Positions 2,763 to 10,599 are shown, numbered from the stretch's first letter. The stretch is 64,000 nucleotides of DNA from Nitrospirales bacterium (GCA_021604005.1 BQIV01000013.1:1-64000), one strand, 5' to 3'. The notes: generated by a model from the sequence alone, not told the origin. A program made the numbers and translations.

Positions 2763-3168
2763 ATGAAAGTCAGTGATCCATACATGAAAATCGTGGAATG
2801 GTCGGAGGAAGATCAGTGTTACATCGGAACCCGTCCAGGACTCATGCTTGGCGGGATCCACAGCAAAGACGAGGCCAAACGTGTATAAAGAGCTTTGCCA
2901 AGCGGTGGAAGAGTGGATAGATATTTATGAGAAGGATACAGAGCCTCTACCAGCAGCCACGACCGGGAAAAACTACTCAGGAAAATTTGTCGTCAGAGAT
3001 GGCAAGGAGCTACATAAGTCGTTGGCCATAGACGCGCTCCGTCGAGGAAAAAGTCTAAACTCCTATTGTGTAAATTTACTCAAGGAGGAAAGCCCCCTCT
3101 ACAGAATACACAAGTGCAAGCCACGTATTTCGGAGCAAAACCGCAACCCCACTTCGTCCAGAAAGTAG
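2763..3168 (+). pseudogene. HicB-family antitoxin-like gene, frameshifted
   Basis: The first part (2763-2888) reads as the HicB beta strand region with the typical stretch VEWSEEDQCYIGTRPG and LGGIHSKDEAK. It then hits a stop. The next frame continues without loss of similarity as VYKELCQAVEEWIDIYEKD and on to the Arc/CopG-like C-terminus ending HKSLAIDALRRGKSLNSYCV. One extra C at about 2880 (AAA-C-GTGTAT) explains the break. No HicA toxin gene is visible on either side. The last 24 residues after NLLKEES do not resemble the family and may be read-through. The gene is probably a relic of a DNA-binding HicB-type regulator, unless the inserted base is a sequencing error. Confidence 0.72.
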
Positions 3169-3817
3169 TCATCCAACTTTCAGCCAAAATAATTACTCCA
3201 CAAAAGGTTAGGTCCCTTAACAAGAAAGGTTCCTGACACCTTATTGCCTACACCCTGTTTATGTGAGAATGTCCAGATATGGAAACTTTAAATAAGATAG
3301 TTTCAGAAGAACCCTAGCATTCATTATGCCCTGGCCCGTCATGTGGAATGGCGCTACCCTCCTGATCACATATGCCATAATGCCGTAGATCTAGAGGTTA
3401 AAGAGTACTTCTCAACAGGTCTTTCACGCATTCTGTTTTTTACTCGAGTGGTTAAAGTATTAAAACTAGATTTGATCCTTATGTTTATAAAACTAGTCTT
3501 GCCCCCTAGTTTAGTAGGACGAGAACGCATAGAGCCGTTTCAATGAACTTACAAGGGATCGTCGTCGATAAGTCATAAATTACGCACTTTTTCAGGATGT
3601 TATTTTGATGTTGATAAAGGAAGAACCTAAAAAGAAGGCTAGAAATTCACTGTTTGTTGGATTCGTTACGTGATGAGATTTCTCCCCTTTTCTCATGAGA
3701 TAGAAGTTAAGTCGTGGCTATAGGTCTAGAGACTTTCAGACGTAGAATCAGATAGATAGTACTCCAAAGAAAACACCAGCATCGTACTTAATTCATGAGA
3801 CTCGGCCGGTACTACTA
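3169..3817. other. Intergenic stretch without recognisable gene
   Basis: About 650 bases lie between the HicB relic and the convergent phosphoesterase gene. The stretch is visibly AT-richer than its neighbours. A 67-codon plus-strand frame at 3343-3546 has no family resemblance and no ribosome binding site. I see nothing else here except the short inverted repeat at 3226-3242. Confidence 0.5.
3226..3242. repeat. Short inverted repeat AAGGT-N7-ACCTT
   Basis: The 17-bp sequence AAGGTTCCTGACACCTT forms a five-base stem around TCCTGAC. Sequences of this form recur near REP-associated tyrosine transposases (RAYT) in many bacteria, so it may be a stray copy. Only one copy was noticed in this window. 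Confidence 0.3.
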
Positions 3818-5395
3818 TTAGCAGCCTCGTCCCACGCTAGGGCAACGACTATCACAGACATCTACCACTTGCCCTACTGACTTTTCCTCCATGTACCAGG
3901 CTTGAAGACTCTGATTCAGGCCTCCAGTCGGAGATTCTGTGATACTAACAAAAGTATAGCATGCTGGAAGCTCTTCCAGCTGCAGCATTCGTAATCCCTT
4001 GCCCAACGAAGACAGTTTTTTCGAGCGCGCGATTGCACGGAATTTTTCGTCGTCGATAATGCGCTGGAATGCGCCATCGTTGAGCACGCTCACCTTGACG
4101 CGACTACTGATCTCTACAGGCCATTCTTTTTCAAATGCGTGAGTGTGGCCGTAAACAAAGACTCGCATATTGGGAAGATCTTCCCATCGACCCTTGACAT
4201 ACGGTCCCACAACTCGCTCCCTGGACCAGAGCAGTTTCTCGACTGCCGATCCTAGCTTTTTGCTTGTGGTCGTCGGACATTGTGGTTTTGCCTTGCGGAC
4301 TGCGATCTGGTCACACAGTGCCAACACCGCGTTATCAGGGAGCTTTTGTCGGTCCTGTGCAAGCCCTCTAAGAGCTTGTTCCAGGTTCGTCTTGTCGGAA
4401 ACTGAGAGCATCGCTGCCAGAGGATCATCTTTAGCAAACGCCCCAGCAAATAATGCTGAGCCTAGGTCTCGTGCTTTATTAGTATCCCATTTTGGTAAAT
4501 CGTTATTGTCTGTCTCCCCCAAGAATGCAATCTTCTGTCTCACCGATGTCTCAAGTAGGTTGAACTTCACGAAGCGAAAGAAGTCAAAGACGGTCGCAAA
4601 TACGCCACGGTCACCCATTCTATATTTCGTACCGGCTGACAGAGGACTCAAATTGTCGATAAGCGGGTAAGATTCCTCCTCGTCGTTAAAGATTTTCTGT
4701 ACGAACTGTTCCCCCCACGGACGCTCGAGGTATGTCACTCCGTTGACCTGTTTCGAGACTGTCGGCCATTCTTCGTAACGATTCGGATCCCATCCAATCT
4801 GGTGGCCGTGCTCAGCTACAACCCGCCCCTTCTCCGACTTCCAGGTGCCATCTTTGACTCGGTTGATGCAACTTGTGTCCGATTCAAGAGAGTCAGCTAC
4901 CATCGCCCAGATGTTGTCAAGGACCAATGCCGCATCATGATTACCCGGAATTACATGCACACAGTTTGTCCTGTTTGTCCCTTTTCGGGAGAATGCAGCC
5001 AAAGCTGCCAATTCTCGGGAATGTGCTTTGAGGACAGCCCCCGCTATAACAGTCATCTCTTCAAGACTGCAGCCATAATCCCCGTTCGGCCCCTTACAGG
5101 TAACTCCCGTAGGGGGTTGCCAAAGCTCCAGGAAGTCACCTACGATTACAAGATCCACTGCAGCATTGCCAGGTTGTGAAATGTGTTTGAGAAATCCCTC
5201 AAATGCTACAGGCCAGCGAAAGTCCTCCGTCTTATACCAGGATCCGTTTGCATCTTTTCCCAACCCCATGTGAAGATCGCTGATAAAGACTATCGTGCGA
5301 GGCGAAGCTGAATTTACGCCTTCGACAGCGAAGAGGAAAATGATGCAGAGAATTATCTGGCCAGTTCTTCTGAAAAATGTTGCTGTTAGAGTCAT
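3818..5395 (-). CDS. Exported calcineurin-like metallophosphoesterase
   Basis: The protein has a signal peptide (residues 1 to about 30) followed by a calcineurin-fold metallophosphoesterase. The metal-ligand motifs are in order: SDLH (D40, H42), GDFLELW (D87), GNHD (N152, H153), a GH pair within AEHGHQ, and GHTH near the C-terminus. The GDFLELW form recalls LpxH-type and other phosphodiester hydrolases, but the protein is about twice that size, so the substrate is not predicted. The ATG at 5395 was chosen over the longer frame because it has a GAGGAG site upstream and directly precedes the signal peptide. It starts only ten bases after the stop of the CHAT gene, so the two are co-transcribed. 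It is the last gene of the three-gene exported operon. The periplasmic or extracellular location is inferred from the signal peptide. Confidence 0.85.
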   Translation of the reverse strand: MTLTATFFRRTGQIILCIIFLFAVEGVNSASPRTIVFISDLHMGLGKDANGSWYKTEDFRWPVAFEGFLKHISQPGNAAVDLVIVGDFLELWQPPTGVTCKGPNGDYGCSLEEMTVIAGAVLKAHSRELAALAAFSRKGTNRTNCVHVIPGNHDAALVLDNIWAMVADSLESDTSCINRVKDGTWKSEKGRVVAEHGHQIGWDPNRYEEWPTVSKQVNGVTYLERPWGEQFVQKIFNDEEESYPLIDNLSPLSAGTKYRMGDRGVFATVFDFFRFVKFNLLETSVRQKIAFLGETDNNDLPKWDTNKARDLGSALFAGAFAKDDPLAAMLSVSDKTNLEQALRGLAQDRQKLPDNAVLALCDQIAVRKAKPQCPTTTSKKLGSAVEKLLWSRERVVGPYVKGRWEDLPNMRVFVYGHTHAFEKEWPVEISSRVKVSVLNDGAFQRIIDDEKFRAIARSKKLSSLGKGLRMLQLEELPACYTFVSITESPTGGLNQSLQAWYMEEKSVGQVVDVCDSRCPSVGRGC

Positions 5396-5405
5396 TCTGT
5401 TCTCC

Positions 5406-7880
5406 TCATGGACTAGCACACAGGCGTAAATTCGGATTTCCGACGAAAATAAGCTCCAATCCCATGTCGCCAACTGAGCCTTTTACCTTCAAATCAGTGT
5501 GATTCTTCATAGCTGTAGCCGTCGCCGATATTGCTTGGTTAAAAAGGTTAAGTAATGCGTAATCCTTACCCTGAGCGAGAGCTTTATTCACTAGCCGAGT
5601 AAATTCAATAGCAAAGGCCTTACCGTAGTTTGCATCAAGGGAGAAAGGAGAGAGAATCGCAGCATCAAGGCCAAAGCTGTTGAGCTTCTCATATAGGAGT
5701 CGGTCGACACGATTCACACCAGCTGATTCGCACATTACAAGTAATGCGGCAGTTGCTTCACCATACTCCCTGGTAAGCTCGTTGACCTGGAGTTCGTAAT
5801 CGTTCTTATTATAGTAAAGCCGACCGGCATTGTGATGCGAAACGACCACAAGTCCTTCCTGCTGAGCCTTTTGATCTTGATTTGTCAGGTAGTCTCTAAG
5901 CTTTTCAAACGACTCGCCAAGCCAGTTCTTTTGCTGCTTGATTTCGTCGGGTAATTTCACCACAGCGCCATCAAGTTTGTCTGATATTGCAACTGACCAC
6001 TTGTTTAAACAACCAGATTCACCGTAATCTTCTTTTGGAAGTGGGAGTATTACCTGGAGAGGTTTACGAAGGAATCCCCCAGAACCAGGTGCGGAAAGAA
6101 GACTGAACGGTAGGAATACGATGTCCCCACGGCGATCCGTGAATCGCACCAGAAAAGAGGGTGGGGTCGCCGATCCATCTACGAACGCTTTCAATGCTAC
6201 CTTTGCAGCACGAGCCTTTTTCTGCTCAGCTGGGTCTTTAGCTGAGAAGAGCGCGTTGGCTAATGTCGTTCCTACCCTACCATACGCATGTTTGGTGCCA
6301 TTGATGGTAAGCTCGCGGGCTTTTTCGATCCTCCCTTCGAGATTTCGTTTGTCTGCCAAATATTCAGTCAGTGGAGGATAGATTTCCCATGAGAAGGGTG
6401 CGTCGCTGACCCCATAGAGAAATGCAGCAGCAACTTTTCCCGAATCTAGGGAGAATTGCTCGAACACATGAAGCGCAGCGTCCACCAGCGGTGCGTCACC
6501 ATGCGTCAACAGATTGTGTAGTCCAGCGGTAAGCACTGTGGTGATCTCGTTCGAGGAGCACTTTTTCTGGCTATCTGGTGAACTGATGACCTCAAGTGAG
6601 TGCACGAGGTGATCAAGGGGACGAACCCCTGATTTATCTGTGATCGAAATAGCAATGGCTCCGCAACCAACCGCCCGCGGGTCAAGGGAGATCTCAATTG
6701 TTGTTGCAGCAGCTATGGCCGAAAGCTGAACAGGGTTTCGCGCACCCATAAGATTCGGTTGTGGTGTGCTCGGATCAAGCTTGGTCAAATCTAGTACGAT
6801 ATGGTGCGTTTGCTGGTTAGCGATCTCGACCGCATGGCCAATCACCTCAGTGCGAACAGTGAATTCACGCGTAGTAATCCCTTGGCGCATTAATACATTT
6901 ACCATTTCGCTGAGCGTCGGATCTGGTGGTGCATGACCAATAGGTAATCCTTGGAGTATCTTTTCATAGATGTATAGGGACGCGTCGACCTGCAACGTAT
7001 ATTCGGTTTCGACTCCGTTTTCCTCGAGAAGTAGGGCAGCAAGAGGTGTGCGATTTGGATCTCCAGTGCGATATGTCCAGCTGTTCCAGGTCCAGGTCGG
7101 AGTCCTCCCGTCTTGTTCGCCGCCACTCTGCAAGGGAATCCAGCCCCTGAACTCTTTCTGACTAGGGAGAGGCGGTGGATTGCCTTCAATTTCGTACTCC
7201 AAATATTCGCTCCGTCGGGGAAAACCACCGCATTGGTTTGGGTCCAAAGCCACGCAAAATCGGGTTGAGATAACTTGGGCAACCTCGCGTTCAACGTCTG
7301 GGGCTCGAAATACGATTGCAAGAGGTGCTTCCCCGAGACGGTCCTTGACCCCGATTTTGAAAACATGCCGTTCAATGACCCATACAGGCTTGTCGTTTAA
7401 TTGGAGGAGGGTAAAAGGGTTGGACACGACATCTATTTTCTCGATAAGGTCAAACTGGTTGAGCTGTCCACGCATGTCCGGAGAACTAACGAAATCAGCA
7501 CGATACTTATGTAGGAAGAAATGCGGTCTCTCGGTTGCGTTGTACATCTCATCTGTGACAACTACAACTTGCAATATCTGGCCCGGCTCTACCTCTCGCA
7601 TCGGAAGACTAAGCACACCAGCTGGATGAGATATAGAATCGCCGTAGGCTATCGCGCTGATGTCCATCACAAACCGGTAGTTAGTGTTTGGCATAAGATG
7701 CGGAACAGGTTCGAATGATGGCCTTGAAGAGCCTTCGTAAAGCTCGAACCACAGGTTGACAAAGAGATCTTGGCTAGAGCCGGCAGGGACTTCAACCGAT
7801 TTCAACTGGGCATAAATCGCTCGTGGTCCAAATAAAACAAAAAGCAGTGCGGTAATAAACACCATGACCTGCTTAAGCAT
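5406..7880 (-). CDS. Exported CHAT-domain (caspase-like) protein
   Basis: The 824-residue protein begins with a signal peptide ending near AIYAQ (about residue 25). It has a beta-rich N-terminal half without recognised domains and a C-terminal CHAT domain of about 240 residues. The CHAT features visible are the strand FLPFSLLS, the catalytic-histidine strand LVVVSHHNAG (H682/H683), the catalytic-cysteine strand LLVMCESAG (C717) and the closing strand LELIFVGNP. The His-Cys spacing of about 35 residues fits the family. CHAT proteins are clan CD cysteine peptidases and usually cytoplasmic; an exported one is unusual. The gene lies 25 bases downstream of the metallopeptidase and ten bases upstream of the phosphoesterase. 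Peptidase activity is inferred from the His/Cys pair. Confidence 0.75.
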   Translation of the reverse strand: MLKQVMVFITALLFVLFGPRAIYAQLKSVEVPAGSSQDLFVNLWFELYEGSSRPSFEPVPHLMPNTNYRFVMDISAIAYGDSISHPAGVLSLPMREVEPGQILQVVVVTDEMYNATERPHFFLHKYRADFVSSPDMRGQLNQFDLIEKIDVVSNPFTLLQLNDKPVWVIERHVFKIGVKDRLGEAPLAIVFRAPDVEREVAQVISTRFCVALDPNQCGGFPRRSEYLEYEIEGNPPPLPSQKEFRGWIPLQSGGEQDGRTPTWTWNSWTYRTGDPNRTPLAALLLEENGVETEYTLQVDASLYIYEKILQGLPIGHAPPDPTLSEMVNVLMRQGITTREFTVRTEVIGHAVEIANQQTHHIVLDLTKLDPSTPQPNLMGARNPVQLSAIAAATTIEISLDPRAVGCGAIAISITDKSGVRPLDHLVHSLEVISSPDSQKKCSSNEITTVLTAGLHNLLTHGDAPLVDAALHVFEQFSLDSGKVAAAFLYGVSDAPFSWEIYPPLTEYLADKRNLEGRIEKARELTINGTKHAYGRVGTTLANALFSAKDPAEQKKARAAKVALKAFVDGSATPPSFLVRFTDRRGDIVFLPFSLLSAPGSGGFLRKPLQVILPLPKEDYGESGCLNKWSVAISDKLDGAVVKLPDEIKQQKNWLGESFEKLRDYLTNQDQKAQQEGLVVVSHHNAGRLYYNKNDYELQVNELTREYGEATAALLVMCESAGVNRVDRLLYEKLNSFGLDAAILSPFSLDANYGKAFAIEFTRLVNKALAQGKDYALLNLFNQAISATATAMKNHTDLKVKGSVGDMGLELIFVGNPNLRLCASP

Positions 7881-7905
7881 TTGTCTTCACCCTATTCGAC
7901 TTAGT

Positions 7906-9780
7906 TTATGGAGCATCGCCACGTTTAACACCGAGGTCGACCAACATTCGAGACAGGACTTTATTGTATTGCTTACTGAGTAAGTCTATATAACTACGCC
8001 AGTCTTTTCGCTCAAGGAACTGGAGTGCCCCCAGCTTGTTCGCTGGAGACTGTAGTTCACGGATGTAGGTGTTCAGCTTTAATCGACTCTCTTCAGTCAG
8101 CCAAGTACCTTTGTGTTTGGTGTGTCGGTAATATTCGTACTTGAGGCGACTCCGGTTGAAAACCAGGAAATATTCTGGATGTTCCAGTGGCATTTCAGAA
8201 ACCTCCTTATAGAGGTTCACTGCCAATTCAATGTTCCCCAGTTGCTCGGCAGCGTCTGCTAGCCGGGATTTCAGTCGACTAGGTGCTTCCCCAAAGCGTT
8301 CCGGCTCTGCGACTTTGTTCGCTATCGCGTAATATTCAGAGGCAATGTGGTAGTTCCCGATTCTCCAGTACAGGTCGCCAAGATATAGCGAACTTGTGGG
8401 GTTCCCCGGCATATATGCCGCGCTCTCAACAGCTTTTTGCCACGCGATAGCGAACCCCATTGCGTTGAGGCAATATGTAGTTTCCTTCTTTGCTTTTAGG
8501 AAAAGATGCCTGGCATTTGGGTTAGACCACCAGCGGTTCGCCAGCCTTTCTAACCATGCCCTATATTGAATGTCGACCTCGGTCGCCTCTTTTTCTACCA
8601 TATCTAATCGTTCTTCTTCGCTGAGACTGGATAAAACTCGATTCCAGGCATGCAAGGTCTCGCGGTTAGCTCTGGTCAGAAACCAATAGATACTGTGCGC
8701 AATAGCATAGCGGTATGAGAGTTCGGTGCTTTCTACACCATAGAATCTTCCTGGCTGCATTGATAGAATTTCGGTCAGAGAGAACTCTGGCCTATAGTGA
8801 ACGTACTCGTGAGCCCTATGAATCTCTCCTACCGTGAAGTAGTCACCACGCCAGAATTCTGAGGCACTGCCTATACATTTCATATATTTCTCGTTATCGA
8901 AGGAAGGATGGCGAGATATCCCAAATAGCATTTTCGACAGCTTCACAATCTCACCCCGCATAAAAGCATTATGCTGGGCGTAGAGCGCTGAAGCTTCACT
9001 CAAAAGAGGAAATTTATAAATGCGGGAGGGTGTTCGTTGTTGAATTGCATGAAAGAGTTCGTGTCCGAGATCTCGAATGACCAGTCGAGCGACATAAGAC
9101 TCAAGCCTTCCTACATTTTCGGTCGTTGTTCGACCCGTCCACTTTGCTTGATAAGCGGCTTCACGGAACATCGACTTGTTAACATAGACTCCCACTTCTG
9201 CCCGTAATGGATCCCAATAGGCGACGGCACTAGAATGGCCGATTCGACGAAGATAGGCCTGCCAGACTTTCGAGTCCGATACCACACGAATCGAGATTTT
9301 CCCAGCAGTGAGGGTTTTCTTTGGTAATAGCGGAGTCCCATCCGCCAAACCCGGCGACGATGAAATACCGTAGTAAATCCTTCCGAGGAAATGGTAGGTC
9401 GCGGCGTAGAGATATGGAACGATGTGGCCCCAGCCCGTCTGTTCAAGCACCAGACTGAAATACTCGACGGTGGCTTCCGAACCTGAGGCCATGTATTTCA
9501 ATAACGCTGGATCTGATTTTGAGTACGATTGGAACTCCGGGATTACAACATCCAGGTCCGTTTTGAAGATGAGCTTGACGTTTGCTACTTCGGGGATGGG
9601 CAGTTCGTAGGGCCCATAGCTTTGGAATAGAGCCTCTTCCAATTGAGTACTCGTCTCTGTAGTTTGAGCGTAGCCTCCCTCCATGTTTAAAACTAAAACT
9701 AGCATCGTCGAAATACTTACCAACCAACCTGTAGGTTTATTATTCCGGCTAAGCAAGCGAAAATCATTTTTTTTGAGCAT
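7906..9780 (-). CDS. Exported gluzincin-type metallopeptidase with helical-repeat C-terminus
   Basis: From the chosen start the protein has a signal peptide of about 38 residues ending GGYA-QTT. It then has a globular region with HELFH at about 240-244 and a candidate third zinc ligand, Glu in LLSEAS at about 262, eighteen residues on. This spacing fits gluzincins. After the catalytic region comes a helical stretch (about 455-560) with TPR-like repeats, for example around SLYLGDLYWRIGNYHIASEYY. A longer frame opens at 9906, but its extra 42 residues place basic sequence before the signal peptide, and an AGAAG site precedes 9780, so the shorter form is preferred. It is the first gene of the operon with the CHAT protein and the phosphoesterase. 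The peptidase family cannot be named more precisely by eye. Confidence 0.72.
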   Translation of the reverse strand: MLKKNDFRLLSRNNKPTGWLVSISTMLVLVLNMEGGYAQTTETSTQLEEALFQSYGPYELPIPEVANVKLIFKTDLDVVIPEFQSYSKSDPALLKYMASGSEATVEYFSLVLEQTGWGHIVPYLYAATYHFLGRIYYGISSSPGLADGTPLLPKKTLTAGKISIRVVSDSKVWQAYLRRIGHSSAVAYWDPLRAEVGVYVNKSMFREAAYQAKWTGRTTTENVGRLESYVARLVIRDLGHELFHAIQQRTPSRIYKFPLLSEASALYAQHNAFMRGEIVKLSKMLFGISRHPSFDNEKYMKCIGSASEFWRGDYFTVGEIHRAHEYVHYRPEFSLTEILSMQPGRFYGVESTELSYRYAIAHSIYWFLTRANRETLHAWNRVLSSLSEEERLDMVEKEATEVDIQYRAWLERLANRWWSNPNARHLFLKAKKETTYCLNAMGFAIAWQKAVESAAYMPGNPTSSLYLGDLYWRIGNYHIASEYYAIANKVAEPERFGEAPSRLKSRLADAAEQLGNIELAVNLYKEVSEMPLEHPEYFLVFNRSRLKYEYYRHTKHKGTWLTEESRLKLNTYIRELQSPANKLGALQFLERKDWRSYIDLLSKQYNKVLSRMLVDLGVKRGDAP

Positions 9781-10223
9781 AGCTGCCATCTTCTGCACGC
9801 GGAGACGATTGTTCCTTAATACTGAATCATAAAAATTATAGAAAGCTACGGAAAATATTATTTGATGAGCTTTTGGCTCGTTTCTCATAACTGCCAATAA
9901 CGCCATCGAACTGTTCCATCTTTAGCAGGACTTATTGTAAAGTTTTCGGCTTATTTGTCAAAAAGAAAGCGAGGAGGGAGAAATAGGAGAATAGGGGATG
10001 CGAAGATGACATTCGAGACCTACTGATGTAGATCAATAGGTGGACTTGACCACAATAGTTCGGCACGCCTAGTCAAATCTCTGCCTGAACTCATGCACCT
10101 CATTTATGCCTGTATTACAAGTGGCCTAGACTACGAACGCTCAACGGTCTATGGGCTCATGATATTCCAATATTCAACTCAATCACTTGGCATTCGAACG
10201 TCAGAATTACAGGTGTTCTAGGT

Positions 10224-10312
10224 GGCCACGATTGTTCCTTATCAGCAAGCAAACCAATAGGCAATCTACATAGAATCTACTTTTGCTCACAATGTGTCAA
10301 TTATAAGTGGCC
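10224..10312. repeat. 89-bp direct repeat, copy 1
   Basis: The copy begins GGCCACGATTGTTCC and ends AATTATAAGTGGCC. It matches 10511-10599 over its whole length with a handful of substitutions and no gaps. Its ends are inverted (GGCCAC and GTGGCC). The offset between copies is 287 bases, about three periods of the larger array. Confidence 0.85.
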
Positions 10313-10510
10313 TTGGTGAGTACGATAGTTGACCGCTTGATAGGTCAGCTCATAAGCAATTTTCGATGGAATTCGAGACCTACTGATATAGAGATTACAG
10401 ATGGCGAAACTGGAAACAATGGCTACGGTTGTTTTTGGTCTTCAAACTAACTGACAGACAGCCTTTTATGAGGTCAGGCCCACAATGACATATTGATTAT
10501 AGGTATCAAT

Positions 10511-10599
10511 GGCCACGATTGTTCCTTGTCCGCAAGCCAACCAATAGGCAATCTACATAGAACCTACTTTTGCTCACAATGTGTCAATTATAAGTGGCC
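10511..10599. repeat. 89-bp direct repeat, copy 2
   Basis: This is the partner of the copy at 10224-10312, with the same GGCCAC/GTGGCC ends. It abuts the 3' end of the zinc-ribbon gene at 10601. Confidence 0.85.

Follow-up and report, generated by a model that had tools for sequence, protein, structure and literature searches.

To our knowledge, CHAT and caspase-like peptidases have been studied almost entirely as intracellular effectors. The described systems closest to the locus presented here are Csx29, the TPR-CHAT protein of the type III-E CRISPR Craspase, the clan CD peptidases separase and gingipain, the latter being exported, the LpxH-type UDP-2,3-diacylglucosamine diphosphatase, and the STAND- and caspase-centred conflict systems. 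In published work, caspase-like and calcineurin domains are listed as effectors of such conflict systems, and nSTAND1, patatin and TPR-CHAT-type partners count among the effectors and switches of systems directed against invaders (PMC7159879, PMC8195603).

The locus lies in a stretch of 64,000 nucleotides from a Nitrospirales bacterium (BQIV01000013.1:1-64000, assembly GCA_021604005.1; hereafter the window), whose genome is 4.7 Mb. Three genes occupy the minus strand at 3818-9780 and encode, in transcription order, a putative gluzincin-type metallopeptidase (P0003, 624 aa, 7906-9780), a protein with a predicted CHAT/separase fold (P0002, 824 aa, 5406-7880) and a calcineurin-like phosphoesterase (P0001, 525 aa, 3818-5395). 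P0002 shares the predicted CHAT fold (Z 15-18) and a His-Cys dyad with Csx29, but has no Pfam CHAT or TPR match, is predicted to be exported and has a phosphoesterase partner, and the Cas7-11 effector is absent from the operon by reading. Its best structural matches are separase and gingipain (Z 18.8 and ~13.9), from which it differs by an identity of ~8-13% and by its N-terminal region; we know of no separase or gingipain operon that includes a phosphoesterase. P0001 has the metallophosphoesterase core in common with LpxH, with weak profile matches, but scores far below the NCBIfam equivalog cut-off (11.6 vs 134 bits), is probably exported, is about twice as long and contains conserved Cys residues. 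The likeness to STAND- and caspase-centred conflict systems lies in cytoplasmic relatives, which pair CHAT and phosphoesterase with nSTAND1 or patatin. Neither a CHAT-phosphoesterase pair nor an exported version of it was found in the passages of PMC7159879 and PMC8195603 that were searched. The EACC1-caspase system is also a two-gene, membrane-associated system with a caspase-superfamily member, but its partner gene differs and it lacks the phosphoesterase core (PMC7159879). No description of the pair was found in family libraries or in a literature search with subscription journals and preprints mostly outside its scope. The parts are of known kinds; the pairing and the exported form appear to be new. 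The pair would seem to be an as yet undescribed form of bacterial caspase-type signalling system, located in the envelope.

The three-gene locus and its variable site

The genes are separated by 25 and then 10 bases, as the first-pass annotation had claimed, and a sequence scan revealed no terminator-like site in either gap. Upstream of the metallopeptidase gene, a sigma-70-like promoter match (TTGACA-16-TACAAT, 9961-9934, minus strand) agrees with 11 of 12 consensus bases; it is a consensus match only, and promoter-type matches across the region were, for the scan as a whole, not above shuffled background. Each of the three proteins has a hydrophobic segment at its N-terminus, which residue shuffles reached in 4 (metallopeptidase), 0 (CHAT protein) and 0 (phosphoesterase) of 300 cases, consistent with the signal peptide that had been predicted on each. 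The proposal of joint production and export is upheld for the CHAT protein and the phosphoesterase; the adjacency of their genes is kept across phyla, and both are probably carried on one transcript.

P0003 contains the zinc-binding motif HELFH (residues 240-244; codons 9049-9063, minus strand) and, 18 residues after it, E262 within LLSEASALY (position by eye). The HExxH motif and downstream Glu expected of the first protein are hence present as H240-E-L-F-H244 and E262, and the context of the latter presumably resembles that of gluzincins of the peptidase-MA type. The peptidase part, also as a separate query, has no Pfam peptidase match, and its single-sequence fold model (pLDDT ~33 over this part) was too poor for a fold search; the C-terminal TPR-like region matches TPR_12 with an E-value of 2.2e-5, below the Pfam cut-off. 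By its HExxH...E motif only, P0003 is classed as a putative metallopeptidase. No full-length relative was found in 236 genomes of the order, in which the matches were TPR-only or spurious, including one that reads by eye as a restriction-system methylase (L033).

The stretch 3629-9926 is replaced by other DNA in the sister genome G468, the nearest among the genomes of the genus that were searched, while its flanks (3543-3628 and 9927-10013) are homologous to G468 by blastn. There, 2.4 kb separates the flanks, with a VapBC-like pair between them and a HigBA-like pair nearby (toxin-antitoxin genes at L064 6850-9617; all names by eye). Because the site is filled with other DNA in G468, the trio is regarded as cargo in a variable site. 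Cargo of plasmids or phages was rejected as an explanation: the phosphoesterase was not found in plasmids, phages or viral contigs, the CHAT protein was not found in plasmids, and the gluzincin was not found in plasmids or viral contigs.

Two sets of repeats lie beside the operon, a 90-base direct repeat (96% identical, 10223-10312 and 10510-10599, between the operon and the next gene) and a 28-base repeat (10005-10032 and 10365-10392), possibly the remnant of a small mobile element. On the other side, 2763-3168 reads by eye as a HicB-like antitoxin, seemingly split by a frameshift; HicA was not seen. PADLOC matched none of the window proteins to a catalogued anti-phage defence component, and recognised defence genes do not surround the locus.

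Predicted fold and catalytic residues of the pair

P0002 consists of a hydrophobic signal segment, a beta-rich region (~255-470) and a helical and CHAT region (~480-820). It has no match in Pfam, NCBIfam or PADLOC; the Pfam CHAT model PF12770 gives no match for P0002 and one among nine relatives (E 0.029), and the beta-rich N-terminal region, queried separately, has no Pfam match either. A fold model built from the nine relatives, with a mean pLDDT of only 55.8, retrieved the Craspase TPR-CHAT protein (E 5e-8) and also separase from the PDB by Foldseek, and VIA-align gave Z-scores of 18.8 for separase, 18.0 for the Craspase TPR-CHAT protein and ~13.9 for gingipain R. The CHAT fold that the first-pass annotation proposed to look for in the middle protein is thus recovered in the model, and P0002 is predicted to adopt the caspase-hemoglobinase (separase/CHAT) fold of clan CD.

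His682 (codon 5835-5837, minus strand) and Cys717 (codon 5730-5732, minus strand) are invariant in alignments of the 15 proteins compared, ten exported and five cytoplasmic, and would supply the catalytic His and Cys that follow consecutive strands in clan CD. The earlier assignment had left open whether His682 or His683 acts with Cys717. Since residue 683 is Gln in four of the five Bradyrhizobium relatives from a genome-collection scan, the catalytic His is taken to be 682; the invariance of His682 and Cys717 bears out the rest of that assignment. P0002 as the sole query of the genome collection found nothing, because the CHAT protein diverges too fast; an alignment of the phosphoesterase succeeded instead.

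A Pfam CHAT search of the source genome found only two other CHAT genes and not P0002. Both are canonical TPR-CHAT genes, on contigs C4 and C32 (L001 and L002). The former lies near a hemagglutinin-like fragment and the latter adjoins a CHASE2-cyclase-like gene (both by eye). The L002 protein has a signal-peptide-like start, weak by shuffles (38 of 300), and the earlier statement that CHAT peptidases are known as cytoplasmic effectors needs to be softened to that extent.

By its match to Pfam PF00149 (Metallophos; E 1.6e-8, 35.6 bits vs a cut-off of 21.5), P0001 is classed with certainty as a calcineurin-like phosphoesterase. Its residues D40, H42, D87, N152, H153, H196, H417 and H419 are invariant in an alignment of eight exported phosphoesterases, so that the full DxH/GDF/GNHD/GHTH set of metal ligands is confirmed; a long insert precedes the GHTH motif. 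The nearest solved chain by profile is LpxH, a weak match (E 0.77), and P0001 may be described as weakly and distantly LpxH-like. At three Nitrospirota loci (L009, L010 and L011), a related phosphoesterase adjoins a lipase-like gene, accompanied in two of them by an MlaD-like gene (by eye), which hints at a lipid substrate.

Conservation, export and neighbours of the pair

The phosphoesterase was searched, as a single sequence and with alignments, in 396 genomes of the phylum, 236 of the order, 118 of Bradyrhizobium and 274 and 308 of two proteobacterial classes, in addition to one scan of a genome collection with a phosphoesterase alignment. Close relatives were found at ten loci, namely the present one, G181 (a same-order relative recorded as Nitrospira sp. 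CR1.2), G477, five in Bradyrhizobium from the scan, G597 and a Rhodocyclaceae genome. At all ten, a CHAT gene of the same family lies directly upstream of the phosphoesterase gene, often overlapping it or less than 20 bases away. A CHAT gene also adjoins related cytoplasmic phosphoesterases at five of five loci (G169, a second locus of Bradyrhizobium OK095, G525, G582 and G573). No CHAT gene was seen beside more distant phosphoesterases of haloarchaea, Minicystis, Deltaproteobacteria and Desulfobacterales in the stretches examined, nor in a Nitrospirota branch (G002, G012 and G021) within short stretches of 2.4-3.7 kb; hence, the association is limited to two near branches. The pair is rare and patchy, being present in 2 of the 396 genomes of the phylum and in one of five genomes of its own genus.

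The first-pass annotation had treated all three genes as one set and asked whether their homologues are adjacent or scattered elsewhere. The answer is divided: the CHAT and phosphoesterase genes are adjacent across phyla, and the three genes stand together at none of the other loci found. The trio was rejected as a conserved unit because a relative of the gluzincin is absent beside every other pair; the metallopeptidase stands outside the conserved set, in a place whose occupant varies.

In trees of the phosphoesterase and of the CHAT protein, exported and cytoplasmic sequences form two sets whose separation is fully supported, and the groupings within them match between the trees, although long branches meet at the split in both and call for caution. 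Pairwise distances of the two proteins across the ten exported pairs are strongly correlated (r 0.98, p 0.0002), also after thinning of the near-identical Bradyrhizobium sequences (r 0.87, p 0.004). Nitrospirota members do not group in either tree; in that of the CHAT protein G477 joins the Rhodocyclaceae pair, and in that of the phosphoesterase it branches outside the other eight. The scattering of the Nitrospirota members in both trees agrees with the two genes having been transferred together.

A hydrophobic signal or membrane segment is present on all CHAT proteins of the ten exported pairs. Their phosphoesterases also have a hydrophobic segment, weaker in G477, the N-terminus of which reads as a lipoprotein signal, and such a signal or membrane segment is found on none of the cytoplasmic set. 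A location of both proteins outside the cytoplasm, or anchored to the membrane, is therefore a well-supported prediction. Independent support comes from two Cys residues of the phosphoesterase (Cys361 and Cys373) and two of the CHAT protein (Cys624 and Cys821), all of which occur in 10 of 10 exported members and are absent from the cytoplasmic set, as expected if these residues form disulfides outside the cytoplasm, which they may do.

The third gene differs from locus to locus. The gluzincin-TPR gene of the window, 25 bases from the CHAT gene, is replaced by a caspase gene 8 bases downstream of the pair in G477, a TPR-CHAT gene 6 bases upstream in G597 and an L,D-transpeptidase (YkuD) gene 42 bases upstream in G181; all four proteins start with a hydrophobic segment. 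The pairs of Bradyrhizobium S69 and Rhodocyclaceae have no same-strand neighbour. Two explanations of the metallopeptidase bear on this pattern. The first is that it is an unrelated passenger in a site whose cargo comes and goes, which would agree with the VapBC- and HigBA-like genes of the sister genome and with the lack of a gluzincin relative elsewhere. This is somewhat unlikely, given that the gene shares the strand of the pair, is separated from it by so few bases and encodes a protein that is also predicted to be exported, and that a tightly spaced exported peptidase occupies the third position at two other loci. The second, originally suggested for the operon, is a cascade of the metallopeptidase, CHAT protein and phosphoesterase acting on a surface or competing-cell target. 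The close spacing of three exported genes and the caspase and TPR-CHAT neighbours speak in its favour; the gluzincin is however found only here, the pair stands alone in Bradyrhizobium S69 and Rhodocyclaceae and there is no sign of delivery into other cells, which leaves the competing-cell target without support and the cascade itself improbable.

The cytoplasmic relatives have neighbours of other kinds. In G169, of the same order, a three-gene set (L013 8565-14610) encodes TPR-CHAT, CHAT and phosphoesterase proteins; a patatin domain is fused to the cytoplasmic CHAT protein in OK095 and G525, and the pair adjoins an nSTAND1 NTPase in G582 and, by eye, an nSTAND1-like protein with a patatin-like region in G573. 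For the cytoplasmic relatives, PADLOC returned only weak NTPase-type matches. Gene sets of phosphoesterase, CHAT and nSTAND1 NTPase were observed in Bradyrhizobium at L052 6180-11199, with a patatin-like region (by eye), and at L050 3768-8154.

Proposed function and its main rival

We tentatively propose, as a reading that is plausible if somewhat short of probable, that the locus encodes an effector module of the envelope which moves horizontally and has a CHAT-phosphoesterase core, and in which proteolysis probably controls the phosphoesterase. The beta-rich N-terminal region would keep the CHAT protein in check until an envelope disturbance or a neighbouring exported enzyme triggers it, upon which it would cleave or release its partner phosphoesterase. 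The latter would then hydrolyse an envelope phosphate ester, for which a phospholipid or a lipid intermediate linked to a nucleotide or phosphate is the probable candidate. The occupant of the third position, here the TPR-bearing metallopeptidase, would be an accessory open to exchange, whose probable part is to provide the trigger or to make a second cut. The cytoplasmic sister modules have the same pair beside an nSTAND1 NTPase, a patatin phospholipase or a TPR-CHAT protein, components typical of conflict systems in bacteria. The lipid substrate is suggested by the weak LpxH resemblance and by the patatin and lipase neighbours; cleavage by the CHAT protein, the phosphoesterase or third protein as its partner and a response to attack or damage are likewise conjectural.

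The main rival to a role in conflict is an ordinary envelope-maintenance or nutrient set, devoted to periplasmic phosphate scavenging or lipid-precursor turnover, in which the CHAT protein would mature or regulate the phosphoesterase constitutively and have no part in defence or death. Such a role would suit the LpxH-like motifs, the MlaD-like and lipase neighbours, noted by eye, of the distant Nitrospirota phosphoesterase branch, and the pairs of at least two Bradyrhizobium (Y36 and S69), which apparently occupy the same chromosomal place beside housekeeping genes. It is nevertheless fairly unlikely in view of the patchy occurrence of the pair, the conflict-type partners kept by its cytoplasmic relatives and the toxin-antitoxin genes that fill the site in the sister genome. 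The effector module is read in terms of conflict because published work treats the partners of the cytoplasmic branch as effectors and switches of systems that counter invaders. A broader possibility, which we regard as doubtful, is that CHAT-phosphoesterase pairs form an undescribed family of conflict modules, divided into two branches. The cytoplasmic one would be triggered by nSTAND1 or TPR sensors; the other would conduct caspase-type signalling outside the cytoplasm and guard the envelope against attack, for instance by phage entry, predation or toxins.

Because neither the pair nor its CHAT protein is picked up by profile libraries, more cases have probably been overlooked. The STAND, patatin and TPR partners of the cytoplasmic sister modules suggest how the pair is triggered, and a two-gene unit is small enough for direct testing. 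If a conserved, mobile pair does place a CHAT protein, along with a phosphoesterase dedicated to it, beyond the inner membrane, signalling of this kind would gain a new compartment.
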